From Prevotella sp. (GTDB lineage: Bacteria > Bacteroidota > Bacteroidia > Bacteroidales > Bacteroidaceae), in the NCBI GenBank assembly GCA_017645905.1, contig JAGCNO010000079.1:1-39535 (forward strand): a stretch of 39,535 nucleotides of DNA, given 5' to 3'. Shown here one piece after another: positions 1 to 8,697 of this stretch. Made by a program: the position numbers and the translations under genes. The notes beneath the pieces are model-generated. The model saw nothing but the letters and a program-made list of their open reading frames with translations. It was not told the origin of the DNA and made no database searches. How positions within the stretch are numbered: the first letter of the stretch is position 1; each line of letters opens with the position of its first letter.

Positions 1-1221
1 GAAGTAGAAGTAGTACTCTGTGCTGTCGCTCAGCATGTTAAGTGTAGCACTGGGCAGCAGCTGCACCTCCTCCACGTAGGGACCGCTGAGCTCGCTGACG
101 CTGCTGCCGCTGGTGGCCAGCTCCTCGTTGGTGGCATAGTAGTTGAAGCCGAAGATGAGGGGCAGCTGTGTGATGGTGCCGTTCTGGCGGTTCACGGCCA
201 TGGGGATGTAGCTGATGATGTCAGAGGCGCTGTTGTTGTCAAAGATGTTGTCCCATGACGTGCCGAAGTTCTCCTGAGTGCTGAGCAGGCCACGGTCGGG
301 CAGGTCGCTGTCGGTCATGCCGCCGATACGTCCGTTGCTGATGCTCTTGGAACTCATGGGGGCGACATAGTCGCTTGACATGAACATGCTGCGGAGTGAT
401 GTGAAGCTGGAGGCCACCTGTGTCAGATAGGTGATGTAGTGGCGGGCAGCCTGTTCGAACTGTCCTGTCTCGAGATAAAGTTCGCCGAGGATGACGTCGA
501 CGGGGATGAAGCAGCGCATAGGGCTGAAGCTCTTGGTCTCGCTGGCCCAGTTGGGTGAACCGATGGTGCGGAAACCATTGTAGCTCAGACCGTAGGAGGG
601 TGGTGTAAAGCCTGTGTACTGTTCCAGGTCGGGAGCCAGCTGTGACACCAGCCCCTTAAGGTCAAGCTCGGGATAGTTGCCTCCGTCAATCTGCGAAATC
701 TGCGTCAGCGGCTCGGTGAAGAAAGGCACGCGTTCGTAGTTGCGTCCTAACTGCAGATAGGCCCAGGCACGGATGGCCTTCACGGCGGCATACTCAGGCA
801 AGACGACGTTGCGCGAGCCGGTGAGCAGCGTGGTGTCACGGTGGGCGATGTAGTAGTTGCAGTTGTTGATGACGCGGTAATATACGTAGGCCGAGTCATA
901 CTGGTTAGCCGTGGTGGCCGAGAAGTTGGCCAGCTGGCGAAGATTATTGTCGGTGTATTTGGTGGTGCTCACCAGTTCGCCGCGCAACTCGCCCTGCAGC
1001 ACATACTGGTCGGCCAGTTGCTGCATGGCCTGGAGGATGCCAAAGCCGTAGAACAGGGAGTCGGTCTTTGCCGTCAGTTCAGGCTCAATGTTCTGGCGCG
1101 TGCTCTCCGTCTCGAGCATGTCGGAGCAGGAGACCCCCACCCAGCCTCCCCCAAGGGGGAGGAGTATGTAGACAATAAAATGGAACAACTCCTTTGTCTT
1201 ACTTAAAATATGTCTTTTCAT
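1..1221 (-). CDS. SusD/RagB-family outer-membrane lipoprotein, partial (C-terminus outside window)
   Basis: This is a surface glycan-binding lipoprotein expected to cap the SusC-type transporter encoded just upstream at 1291-4611. I read 407 codons from ATG at 1221 with no stop before the window edge. The N-terminus has a basic start (MKRH), a hydrophobic stretch and a lipobox-like GVSC with Cys32 as the likely lipidated residue. The body has SusD-like helical text, including an AVKAIRAWAYLQLGRNYERVPFFTEP segment (shown here in part as AYLQLGRNYERVPFF), which corresponds to the usual SusD 'RAlayf.L.r.yG.vP' helix. The gene follows SusC, the normal susC-susD order. Oddly, the codons for LLPLGGGWVGVSC lie inside a GC-rich repeat (1131-1166) also found in the signal peptide of the protein at 6454-8619. 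The family call is firm; the glycan is not known. Confidence 0.88.
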   Translation of the reverse strand, partial: MKRHILSKTKELFHFIVYILLPLGGGWVGVSCSDMLETESTRQNIEPELTAKTDSLFYGFGILQAMQQLADQYVLQGELRGELVSTTKYTDNNLRQLANFSATTANQYDSAYVYYRVINNCNYYIAHRDTTLLTGSRNVVLPEYAAVKAIRAWAYLQLGRNYERVPFFTEPLTQISQIDGGNYPELDLKGLVSQLAPDLEQYTGFTPPSYGLSYNGFRTIGSPNWASETKSFSPMRCFIPVDVILGELYLETGQFEQAARHYITYLTQVASSFTSLRSMFMSSDYVAPMSSKSISNGRIGGMTDSDLPDRGLLSTQENFGTSWDNIFDNNSASDIISYIPMAVNRQNGTITQLPLIFGFNYYATNEELATSGSSVSELSGPYVEEVQLLPSATLNMLSDSTEYYFYF

Positions 1222-1293
1222 AATCGATTGTTTTTATATTATAGAATCTAACTACTCCCCTCCCTCGAGGGAGGGGCAGGGGGAGGGTCTTTA
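1131..1293. repeat. Inverted pair of GC-rich elements around the start of the SusD gene
   Basis: One copy (1131-1166) begins AGACCCCCACCCAGCC on the plus strand and contains the hairpin CTCCCCC/GGGGGAG. The second copy (1253-1293) is the same family in inverse orientation, with the hairpin CCCCTCCC/GGGAGGGG and ending GGGTCTTTA, whose last three bases are the complement of the SusC stop codon. About 85 bp of AT-rich DNA with the SusD start codon lies between them. In the transcript each copy can fold locally, or the two can pair with each other (13 of 16 positions over the AGACCC end) and close a loop around the start codon. Confidence 0.85.
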
Positions 1294-6453: not shown

Positions 6454-8619
6454 TTAATACCAGTCTTCGGAATAGGTGTCGTTGTCTACCACATCTACGG
6501 GAACGAACTCGATGTAGTCGAACTGCCACTTCAGGTCGGTCTCGTCCTGTATGACGTTCTTGATGCGGAACCAGTAGTCCTGACTCTGCTTGAACTGCTG
6601 GCGTGAAAGAATCTTTCGGAGCGATGCGTTTCGCTTGTCGCTGCGCTGGTTGACGGTGGGTCCCCAGTCGGAATACTCCGGGTGGTCGCGGTAGCTGAAC
6701 AGTCCGCGCATGTAGCCACGGTTGCGCATAGCAGCGTCGGTGGCTACGCCCATGTCGTCTTCCTCAAAGTAGGTGGTGGAACCGATGCGCGGGTCTTCGA
6801 TGCCGATACGCACATCGAGCGGGATGTCGAGTGCCATCATCGACGAGAGGCTGGGCGAAGTGCCGAGGTAGAACTGCATCATGCCGCCGTGGGCCATAGG
6901 TGTGTAGAAGATGCGGAACTCGTATGTTCCAGTCGGCACGTGAGGCAGCTTGATGGCCAGGTCGTAGTTGCCCCAACCTTGGAAGGTGTCGCTCTGCCAG
7001 GCGTTGTAGGCTCCCTTGACGTTGTAGCGGAAACGGTTCTCGGGCGAGTAGCTCACTACGTTGTCGAAGTAGTTGAGCGGGAAGGCTACACGGGCACCGC
7101 TGCCACCGCCGTTCTTGGCACTCATGAGCGACATGGTGCTCATACGGATGTGGTTGTTGATGAACTCCACGAGGAACGTGGTGCTGTCGAAGCGCATACG
7201 CTCGTGGAGCACACCCTTGGGAACCAGCTCGTCGTAGACCAGCATGGAGCGCAGACCGTGGATGTAGCCGTTGTAGGTCTGGATGTTGGTTTCGAAAGGC
7301 AGGTTATCGGTCGTTCGGGCAATGCGCACACCCTCACGGACGAGGCGGTGGATGCCGTAGTCGTTGACCAAAGCGCCTGCGACTTCAGCGGTCTCGCTGC
7401 CCAGCTCGTCGGTGAGCGTATTGAACGTGCGGTAGCGGTTGATGTAGAGCTGAGTGCCTGTGGGCTCCCAAATCTTCAGGATGGTGCCGGGCAGCATGGT
7501 CTCGTAGTAGTCGAAGGGCTGGCAGCCGTTGGTGTAGTTCCAGGTCGAGGGGTTGCTGTTCTTCTCATAGACCAGCTCGTTCTGCGGCATGCCGGCATAG
7601 AGGATGTGGTAGGAGACGAACATGTTGAGCGCATTGTTGCGGCTGGTATAGTCGGTGCCGGTGCTGACGGTTTTGACGTATTCCTGCTTCTCGTTGTTCC
7701 AGAGACCCTTCTCGGTCAGCACGTCGTACCAAGCGTCTGCTGAGGCATATTGCTCGTTGGCATAGCGGACGAGGTCGTCGAAGCTGTTGATGCCGTTCTC
7801 GGCGAGTACTACGTCGGGCTCAGCAAAGATGGTGTAGGCGATGAGACACTCCTCAGGAGTGTACAGGCGGGAACCGTCTGTGTCGTTGCGGTCCGTGATG
7901 GTATATTTTTCGTTCTTCTTCGTCTTTGTCAGCGAGTCGACCAGTCCTGTGGCCTTGAGGGCTTCCATGAAGATGCTGTAATCCTCATGTCGGTCCAGCT
8001 CGTCGGCTATGAGGCGTGTGCTGCGCGGTATAACGCGGTTGAGCACATGCACAATGCCGTTGGTGACCAGGCTGTCGGGCTCGATGATGACGGCCAGTTT
8101 CTCGATGGTGACGCGACCTAAAGAGTCAATGGCTCCGCTGGTCTGCACGGGCCGGCCCAGCATGGTGGCAACGGAGCCTCCGGCACCGCCCATCTCGATG
8201 GTGTTATGTACGCCAGCTGCGAGGTGATACATGGCTATGTCGTTGCAAAGACTGTCGCTAAGCCCTTCCAGCGAGTTGGCCTCCATGCCGTTGTGGGGAA
8301 TGACGGCCTCGGGGTCGTTCCACAGACTGTCGAGGTAGAACTGGATGGCCTCGTTCGTGGGAGCGAAGCAGGTGTATTCACCATAACTGGAGAGGTTGCG
8401 GTCCAGTCGGACGCGGCTCAGAATATAGTCGAACGACGTGAGCTCGGCCTTACGCTTGATGTAGTCGGCAGCCGTCTCGCCGGTGGCGGTGAAGAGGTCG
8501 CTCTCGTCGGGTTCGGGATTACAGGAGACCCCCACCCATCCTCCCCCTGCGAGGGGGAGGAGTATATAGATTACGAAGCGGAACAGCCTCATCATCTTTT
8601 CTTTAACATATTGTGTCAT
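6454..8619 (-). CDS. FAS1 (fasciclin) domain lipoprotein with C-terminal beta-rich region
   Basis: A 721-residue predicted surface lipoprotein. The hydrophobic leader YILLPLAGGGWVGVSC gives Cys33 as the lipidated residue when counted from the ATG at 8619; starts at codons 9 or 10 (8595, 8592, giving MMRLFRF) would make a more usual short n-region. The first FAS1 domain has H1 YTCFAPTNEA (82-91) and H2 TNGIVHVLNRVI (186-197). A second FAS1-like domain spans about 205-450 and a C-terminal beta-rich region about 480-721 (a segment reads GWGNYDLAIKLPHVPTGTYE, like a ligand-binding sandwich). It lies 75 bp after the SusD gene, and that gap plus its own signal-peptide codons carry the GC-rich inverted repeat pair (8526-8697). 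FAS1 identity is firm; the ligand is unknown. Confidence 0.9.
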   Translation of the reverse strand: MTQYVKEKMMRLFRFVIYILLPLAGGGWVGVSCNPEPDESDLFTATGETAADYIKRKAELTSFDYILSRVRLDRNLSSYGEYTCFAPTNEAIQFYLDSLWNDPEAVIPHNGMEANSLEGLSDSLCNDIAMYHLAAGVHNTIEMGGAGGSVATMLGRPVQTSGAIDSLGRVTIEKLAVIIEPDSLVTNGIVHVLNRVIPRSTRLIADELDRHEDYSIFMEALKATGLVDSLTKTKKNEKYTITDRNDTDGSRLYTPEECLIAYTIFAEPDVVLAENGINSFDDLVRYANEQYASADAWYDVLTEKGLWNNEKQEYVKTVSTGTDYTSRNNALNMFVSYHILYAGMPQNELVYEKNSNPSTWNYTNGCQPFDYYETMLPGTILKIWEPTGTQLYINRYRTFNTLTDELGSETAEVAGALVNDYGIHRLVREGVRIARTTDNLPFETNIQTYNGYIHGLRSMLVYDELVPKGVLHERMRFDSTTFLVEFINNHIRMSTMSLMSAKNGGGSGARVAFPLNYFDNVVSYSPENRFRYNVKGAYNAWQSDTFQGWGNYDLAIKLPHVPTGTYEFRIFYTPMAHGGMMQFYLGTSPSLSSMMALDIPLDVRIGIEDPRIGSTTYFEEDDMGVATDAAMRNRGYMRGLFSYRDHPEYSDWGPTVNQRSDKRNASLRKILSRQQFKQSQDYWFRIKNVIQDETDLKWQFDYIEFVPVDVVDNDTYSEDWY

Positions 8620-8697
8620 AACTATTCTGTTGTTTTGTTATTTTTGCTAAACTAACTTCTCCCCTCCCTCTGGGGAGGGGCTGGGGTAGGGTCTTTA
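8526..8697. repeat. Second inverted pair of GC-rich elements, around the start of a FAS1 gene
   Basis: This pair has the same design as the one at 1131-1293. The copy at 8526-8565 lies in the coding region for the signal peptide (hairpin CTCCCCCTGCGAGGGGGAG). The inverse copy at 8656-8697 ends GGGTCTTTA, again covering the complement of the stop codon TAA of the upstream gene (SusD here, SusC in the other pair). The spacer of about 90 bp holds the start codon of the FAS1 gene. The spacer sequences of the two pairs are not alike, so the shared part is the elements and their layout. Confidence 0.85.

Follow-up and report, generated by a model that had tools for sequence, protein, structure and literature searches.

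Between the SusC-like and SusD-like genes at one end of a Prevotella sp. contig (JAGCNO010000079.1, assembly GCA_017645905.1), two inverted GC-rich elements stand on either side of the SusD start codon, raising the question of what such a pair does at a gene start and how it came to lie there. A preliminary description of this locus, made from the letters alone, took the pair for a REPIN-like mobile unit whose arms could fold in two ways and might act as a translation switch. The window referred to below is the whole stretch of 39,535 nucleotides that was analysed.

Organisation of the repeat pairs in the window

The genes and repeat arms concerned all lie on the minus strand and are listed in the direction of transcription.

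10506-8695, minus: SusD-like gene (Pfam), its TAA stop directly before the second unit
8694-8653, minus: upstream arm (arm 1) in the second unit, abutting the stop codon TAA of the SusD-like gene
8619-6454, minus: fasciclin-domain lipoprotein gene (Pfam Fasciclin, E 9.7e-16), with the second unit as its signal peptide
8568-8526, minus: downstream arm (arm 2) in the second unit, read as YILLPLAGGGWVGVS within MTQYVKEKMMRLFRFVIYILLPLAGGGWVGVS before a cysteine
6350-4608, minus: further ORF (ORF list)
4611-1294, minus, with TAA at 1293-1291: SusC-like TonB-dependent receptor (Pfam Plug and TonB_dep_Rec_b-barrel)
1290-1249, minus: arm 1 of the SusC/SusD unit, the upstream REP-like arm with tail TAGTTA (nhmmer, family A, 48.7 bits)
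1248-1172, minus: spacer of the SusC/SusD unit, with the SusD start codon (1221-1219) and n-region codons
about 1171-1131, minus: arm 2 (inverse copy) of the SusC/SusD unit, SusD codons 17-31
1221-1, minus, cut at the contig start: SusD-like lipoprotein, ATG at 1221-1219, mature start CSDMLETES

A repeat search placed the arms of the SusC/SusD unit at 1131-1162 and 1259-1290, with 75% complementarity and a separation of 96 nt, and together with direct sequence comparison it establishes the inverted pair as real, with arms at 1131-1171 and 1249-1290. The same comparison bore out the pairing claimed for the AGACCC side, at 13 of 16 positions. Arm 1 opens at 1290 and abuts the SusC stop codon, and the downstream protein is 56% identical to a SusD query from a related locus (L050) that Pfam assigns to SusD_RagB.

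The main point, which the preliminary description overlooked, is that the downstream arm is translated. It had placed the inverse copy within the SusD signal-peptide codons, and the position is correct, but the arm is not merely inside them: it is the signal-peptide core, which, read as part of VYILLPLGGGWVGVS, forms the hydrophobic region and the lipobox, with the codon of Cys+1 at 1128-1126. The SusD protein begins with MKRHILSKTKELFHFIVYILLPLGGGWVGVS, the whole predicted lipoprotein signal peptide, followed by CSDMLE. The REPIN-like unit thus very probably fills the entire stretch from the SusC stop to the lipobox cysteine of SusD and encodes the start, n-region, core and lipobox of a type II signal peptide. 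The spacer would supply the start codon and the charged n-region, the second arm, read in one frame, would supply the hydrophobic core and lipobox of the predicted type II signal peptide, and cleavage would presumably be performed by signal peptidase II. The basis for this reading is at the level of sequence, namely the reading frame, the recurrence in five protein families, the absence of the native signal peptide by comparison with orthologues, and intermediates that keep a native-type remnant.

A second pair in the window (8526-8694) shows the same layout between a SusD-like gene and the fasciclin gene, whose protein begins with MTQYVKEKMMRLFRFVIYILLPLAGGGWVGVS followed by CNPEPDE. The mature parts of the SusD and fasciclin proteins belong to different families according to BLAST clusters and Pfam, and the C-terminal halves of their signal peptides, which are the second arm, are nearly identical.

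The repeat family in the genome

In the 3.40-Mb genome, the pattern CTCCCN{2,12}GGGAGGGGAG has 88 matches and its reversed control none, so the repeat family is not due to chance. In the regions around these 88 strict matches, 79 family-A arms and 36 family-B arms were recognised, and 62 of the 79 family-A arms are paired. Among adjacent family-A pairs within 250 bp, 31 of 32 are convergent, one is on the same strand and none is divergent; this census was seeded from the strict matches and therefore misses decayed pairs, and one window arm, below the profile cut-off, was entered by hand, so that its pair counts among the 31. The REPIN-like layout is borne out by these convergent doublets. The inner tails of the 31 pairs combine a TAGTTA-type with a TATATA-type tail in 17 cases and two TAGTTA-type tails in seven, while two TATATA-type tails never occur and seven pairs are unclassified. 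Many arms carry GTAG at the inner end (first arms only); none of the TATATA-tailed arms does. The earlier expectation of inverted pairs spaced 80-100 bp apart held for the inversion but not for wide spacing as a general rule, the inner spacer having a median of 37 nt over the 31 pairs, with wide spacing found mainly in gene-start units.

By site, 22 of the 31 pairs lie within open frames of more than 250 codons, and in eight the unit includes a Met and an ORF of more than 100 codons runs through it, the products being lipoprotein-like in seven cases and apparently cytosolic in one. The one other pair, on contig C50, is neither in a long open frame nor Met-bearing. At G000:C42:10362-10467 (G000 being the genome of the window), an apparently cytosolic protein takes its start codon and its N-terminal residues (METDVNSNQSPLPLGGVGGGL) from the unit.

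The 36 family-B arms (GACCCC...GGCTGC) were considered as the same unit as family A and rejected, as their sequence differs and their pairs run mostly in the opposite direction. They form a second repeat family (GACCCCACCCCTGCCCCTCCCC..GGGGAGTGGCTGC) with many divergent pairs, for example C23:68374-68538, C50:11284-11399 and C146:7132-7246.

Units in frame within core genes

Family-A units read in frame inside core genes such as IleS, UvrA, Lon and RNase R encode proline- and glycine-rich peptides of about 39 residues. Examples are the following.

G000:C176:27592-27708: in-frame family-A unit
G000:C176:12806-12922: in-frame family-A unit
G000:C169:15470-15586: in-frame family-A unit
G000:C81:16813-16923: in-frame family-A unit

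Twenty of the 22 host ORFs were submitted to NCBIfam, and 16 of the 20 gave family matches at E<=1e-10, many of them being partial ORFs below the curated cut-off. The host genes include IleS, UvrA, Lon, RNase R, MetH, ThrC, RimO, RecG, Dcp, DsbD and Mfd, the last with two hits; two in-frame units (G000:C54:24637-24765 and C54:27309-27408) lie in what is apparently one mfd gene, in an open frame of 1222 codons. Alignments to PDB chains break at the unit in all three proteins tried: in IleS between query positions 256 and 294 against 211 and 217 of the chain, in Lon between 294 and 336 against 319 and 333, and in UvrA between 293 and 332 against 598 and 607. The IleS unit stands in place of a short loop and is carried by two of the 30 loci fetched (G000 and G072). 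At this same loop, the ileS gene of another genome (L246, in G051) has a single short palindrome (CCCCTCCTTTGGAGGGG).

A profile of the inserts matched 40 of 100 genomes of the genus at E<=0.001, eight of which had from 19 to at least 75 matches with both strands counted, and gave no match at E<=1e-7 among the best 25 candidates per genome in 295 other genomes of the phylum sample. The lengths of protein-profile matches were set aside as evidence, such matches always being multiples of three.

Signal-peptide cassettes and their host proteins

A profile built from the two peptides of the window recovered another three genes of this kind from the genome, giving five genes with the same peptide (nine matches listed at E<=10, five of them at E<=1.4e-11). 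The DNA variant GGGGAGGNTGGGTGGGGGTCTCCTG, searched with up to three mismatches, occurs five times in this genome, each time in one of these signal-peptide genes. When genome contigs were scanned with the five peptides, 35 loci were obtained, of which 31 (L046-L076) are in Prevotella-group records, including the named strains Prevotella communis E15-14 (L053) and Xylanibacter brevis ATCC 19188 (L058); the other four (L077-L080) come from other phyla and hold only a short stray motif. A scan of the genus matched 11 of 100 genomes, the window's own included, with up to seven matches per genome. In total, 38 distinct cassettes bear the motif G-G/A-W-x-G-V-S/T-C, or 36 after near-identity removal, and all 36 are from the own genome or Prevotella-group relatives. 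This set leaves out the four stray-motif loci and two (L073 and L074) near-identical to L072, and also six genus loci that lack the motif (L084, L087, L089, L090, L091 and L095), which are variants such as LLPLAGGGWMGVAC and LLPLIGGGWVGVAC, four of the six with alanine before the cysteine. The conservation of GGWVGVSC is partly a matter of ascertainment, since the contig scan selected on GGW[VM]GVSC.

The mature parts fall into eight BLAST clusters, which Pfam searches with representatives reduced to five families: SusD (three clusters, distantly related among themselves), fasciclin (two clusters, likewise distant), FKBP-type isomerase, DUF4973/BT_3044-like proteins and Peptidase_Mx1, a zinc metallopeptidase. 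With families as unlike as SusD, fasciclin and FKBP among them, the cassette is shared across unrelated proteins. By sequence and hydropathy, the cassettes have the features of lipoprotein signals, namely a charged n-region, a hydrophobic core and a cysteine at the mature start, and this cysteine occupies the position of the cysteine in orthologues. Their peak hydrophobicity is slightly lower than that of native signal peptides (median 2.02 versus 2.30), the reference being 22 native sequences copied by hand from the fasciclin and SusD comparisons, with starts chosen by the analyst.

In all 36 cassettes, a CCC run comes no more than 12 nt after the TAA or TAG that closes the preceding ORF; in one (L034), the element proper begins 10 nt past the stop. 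In seven cassettes, TAG runs directly into ACCC or GCCC, so that the first bases of the element seem to complete the stop codon. A site close behind a stop is typical of REPs (PMC3733652, in the part drawn on here), which would suit an element acting on the transcript, with hairpins behind SusC that attenuate or stabilise the mRNA and a coding function that is incidental. Such a reading leaves the replacement of the native signal peptide without explanation, as it does the restriction of the exact coding-arm variant to signal-peptide frames (15 of 15 in 100 genomes), and it is given only a slim chance.

Orthologous loci and intermediate forms

The loci with and without the pair were compared, as the preliminary description had proposed, and orthologues were found to keep the mature start behind ordinary signal peptides. 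For the fasciclin gene, 38 of 100 genomes had matches and 30 loci were fetched; the 320 nt that precede the mature part gave no arm at E<=0.001 in 27 of the 30, whose signal peptides look ordinary, and the mature start CNPEPDES is present in 16 of the 30. In one example (L134), RILAIVALVVGMATLAG precedes CNPEPDESDLYT, where the window has GGGWVGVS before CNPEPDESDLFT. The three fasciclin loci with a unit are that of the window (L133), L146 and L156. Both L146 and L156 have a generic arm followed by a native-type hydrophobic stretch, which in L156 reads LLCLSLFSS before the cysteine; extra codons interrupt the arm of L146. Three further intermediates, in which a hydrophobic stretch of native type likewise comes after an arm, occur in the own genome (on contigs C17, C39 and C107), where C34 carries a complete but different variant, LLPLGGVGGGLVS before the cysteine.

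For SusD, 30 loci were fetched and the full cassette was present in one, the query itself. The rest look ordinary except for L177, with one arm before the start, which may be a decayed unit; L186, with a weak match (E 0.028); and L164, which is unreadable in frame. Upstream of another SusD gene (L172, in G059) stands a different repeat (GAATGAAGAATGAAG...), the inverse of which (TTCATTCTTCACTCTTCATT) codes for part of the signal peptide FFILHSSFFIS before the cysteine; perhaps this is a second repeat type captured likewise.

Two SusD-type loci on one contig, L046 and L052, share 90% identity over the 40 nt upstream and the n-region against 22% over 120 residues of their mature parts, a similarity best read as a cassette copied between genes. 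The cassette common to L035 and L061, whose near-identical proteins (mature identity 0.94) come from two genomes, looks inherited. Although this last case is what would be expected from ordinary vertical inheritance of an old, GC-rich and by chance palindromic signal peptide of one lipoprotein family, such an origin is scarcely credible for the cassette at large, given that five protein families share it, that the same arms and tails occur in units within unrelated core genes, and that orthologues exist without it.

The coding arm and its constraints

In comparison with the generic arm, the coding arm has positions exchanged on both sides of the palindrome, with the stem kept, so that ILPSLxGRGWGWVS corresponds to ILLPLxGGGWVGVS. 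A frame-blind DNA search of 100 genomes for the coding-arm variant gave 53 matches, comprising 15 exact, five with one mismatch and 33 with two, and those at known signal-peptide places numbered 15 of 15, three of five and two of 33, respectively. With all 15 exact matches in signal peptides, the exact variant looks specialised for this role. Nineteen of the 33 matches at other places are in two genomes, G003 and G026. These two genomes together hold 19 copies of a related repeat ending in GGGTGGGGTTNN, none of them at a known signal-peptide place.

The loop codon of the coding arm is present in 35 of the 36 cassettes, and its residue is always one of A, T, I, V, M and L. Within the arm, pS is 0.20 (34 sequences, uncorrected); the ten codons that lead up to it, which the scan motif does not cover, have a pN of 0.35 and a pS of 0.67 (36 sequences, uncorrected). 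The low pS of the arm suggests, besides constraint on the peptide, that the palindrome is constrained or that the arms are homogenised.

These observations bear on whether the units are passive debris, inserted wherever they are tolerated, with signal peptides among the most tolerant sites and neither benefit nor specialisation. A unit that also replaces a loop of IleS, and the 22 of 31 pairs in long open frames, are what debris would leave behind; the confinement of the exact coding-arm variant to signal peptides, the limited set of residues at the loop codon and an n-region pN below pS run against it, making this explanation unlikely.

Predicted folds and the start codon

The preliminary description had proposed that each arm forms its own hairpin or that the two pair and enclose the SusD start codon, as a switch setting SusD output relative to SusC. 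Folding was predicted for 33 of the 36 cassettes, three being dropped for which the pattern found no first arm. Expected pairs between the arms exceed the local pairs of arm 1 in 31 of the 33, and a local arm-1 hairpin with at least five expected pairs coexists in 13. When 32 cassettes were aligned, double-change cells numbered 45 for the inter-arm fold, compared with 27.7 for shuffles, none of the 500 reaching 45; its covariation score was 0.091, and the six slid versions scored no higher than 0.075. The structure was derived from the window's own sequence, itself in the alignment, which favours it, and the shuffles ignore relatedness. Double changes occur in the spacer and in the inner helix, made up of arm stem and tails, with none in outer helices 1 and 2, and the clearest covarying pair within arms and tails is that of columns 62 and 157 (G-C in 18, C-G in five, unpaired in nine). 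For the local hairpins, no covariation was found in the 32 aligned cassettes: they had one double-change cell, a count matched or exceeded in 226 of 500 shuffles. Of the predicted two-way fold, the inter-arm form thus gains some covariation and the local hairpins none. This gives modest support to a large hairpin, whether of RNA or of single-stranded DNA, but not to a conserved switch at the start codon.

Pairing between the arms, with its covariation, is what a switch at the SusD start would need. However, the predicted opening of the start codon spans 0.01 to 0.99 among cassettes, so that the start is not consistently sequestered, and local hairpins coexist in the 13 cassettes mentioned. Doublets of the same family also stand mid-ORF with no start codon involved, complementarity of the arms is equally expected from a common origin or from a single-strand DNA fold in transposition, and the shuffle control is blind to relatedness. 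The switch was dropped as the main function and is considered distinctly unlikely. Signal-peptide coding accounts for the position of the arm more simply, and the pair may in addition have some effect on translation.

A candidate transposase

The own genome has one RAYT-like ORF (L230, G000:C40, 987-1724, minus strand), below the Pfam cut-off. It is divergent, with motifs DHLH and YLQDNP (in YLQDNPRR) matched by eye to motifs in an excerpt of PMC6006769, and represents the best candidate for a cognate enzyme in this assembly. No family-A arm was found on the small contig that bears it. At E<=0.01, Y1_Tnp matches were obtained in all eight insert-rich genomes and in seven of the 12 insert-poor genomes tested; co-occurrence with a RAYT was rejected as an explanation on these counts.

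Proposed origin of the cassette

Units of this family may insert or recombine into weakly constrained stretches, including loops, intergenic gaps and signal peptides, and those landing at gene starts in the right frame would become signal peptides. Later changes in the arm would have removed an arginine (ILPSLxGRGWGWVS to ILLPLxGGGWVGVS) with the palindrome kept, and the finished cassette may then have been copied among genes for surface lipoproteins, perhaps by recombination through the arms. Whether the whole unit acts as a portable module of stop, start and signal peptide, moving or recombining between operons, making the next gene a surface lipoprotein and giving such proteins a shared, homogenised signal, is a more tentative proposal, conceivable but somewhat doubtful.

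Relation to known repeats and significance

The papers compared here are represented by excerpts. REPINs are REP doublets linked to RAYT transposases and located in extragenic space (Bertels and Rainey 2011, PMC3116915). The Prevotella units resemble them in their two palindromic arms, arranged as an inverted doublet with a spacer, in their many genomic copies and in the predicted large hairpin. They differ in location, 22 of 31 doublets being in long open frames and eight being gene-start units that are read through, and in that the cognate RAYT is here a candidate below the cut-off. The Rickettsia palindromic elements (Ogata 2000, as described in PMC2229807 and PMC3733652) are found in frame in unrelated core genes and elsewhere, and the present units are likewise palindromic and in frame in unrelated, partly essential genes; they belong to another phylum, encode another peptide (as judged from descriptions of the Rickettsia elements) and include a subset that forms lipoprotein signal peptides. 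Dimers of GTAG/CGTC REPs occur within uvrA, tRNA synthetase and repair genes, REP ends provide TAG stops, and REPs are present at ORF N-termini, where those of P. putida, C. koseri and S. maltophilia may mostly be non-coding (PMC3733652). In Prevotella, by contrast, the arm is read as a signal peptide, and GTAG is confined to first arms, many of which have it at the inner end.

Closer to a targeting function, a Yersinia RU-2 MITE forms part of the signal peptide of YPO1552 (Delihas 2007, PMC2759123, PMC2229807), a case that concerns one gene in detail with a few weaker or partial predictions, and in which neither a lipoprotein signal nor a cassette across families is described in the excerpts. 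Stem-loops of IS605 are linked to Borrelia lipoprotein genes (PMC2775950), so that transposase-type stem-loops adjoin lipoprotein genes as they do here, but these are at 3' ends, are described as RNA structures and do not form signal peptides. Intragenic REPs and one MITE-derived signal peptide are therefore already known. No report of a recurrent, repeat-encoded lipoprotein signal peptide was found in the open-licence literature, and the excerpt of PMC5771137 held no closer precedent.

In gut Prevotella, the repeat pair seems to have taken the place of the start codon and export signal in unrelated surface lipoproteins, so that a selfish-looking repeat would now label proteins for export. If true, this would be a recurrent case, in bacteria, of protein targeting by an exapted palindromic repeat of selfish type, with intermediates visible in one genome. 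Annotation and homology searches would be affected, since in some Prevotella-group genomes repeats may be the source of signal peptides and of loops read in frame. The origin and spread of signal peptides, and the shuffling of targeting information among genes by REPIN-like units, would thereby become testable.
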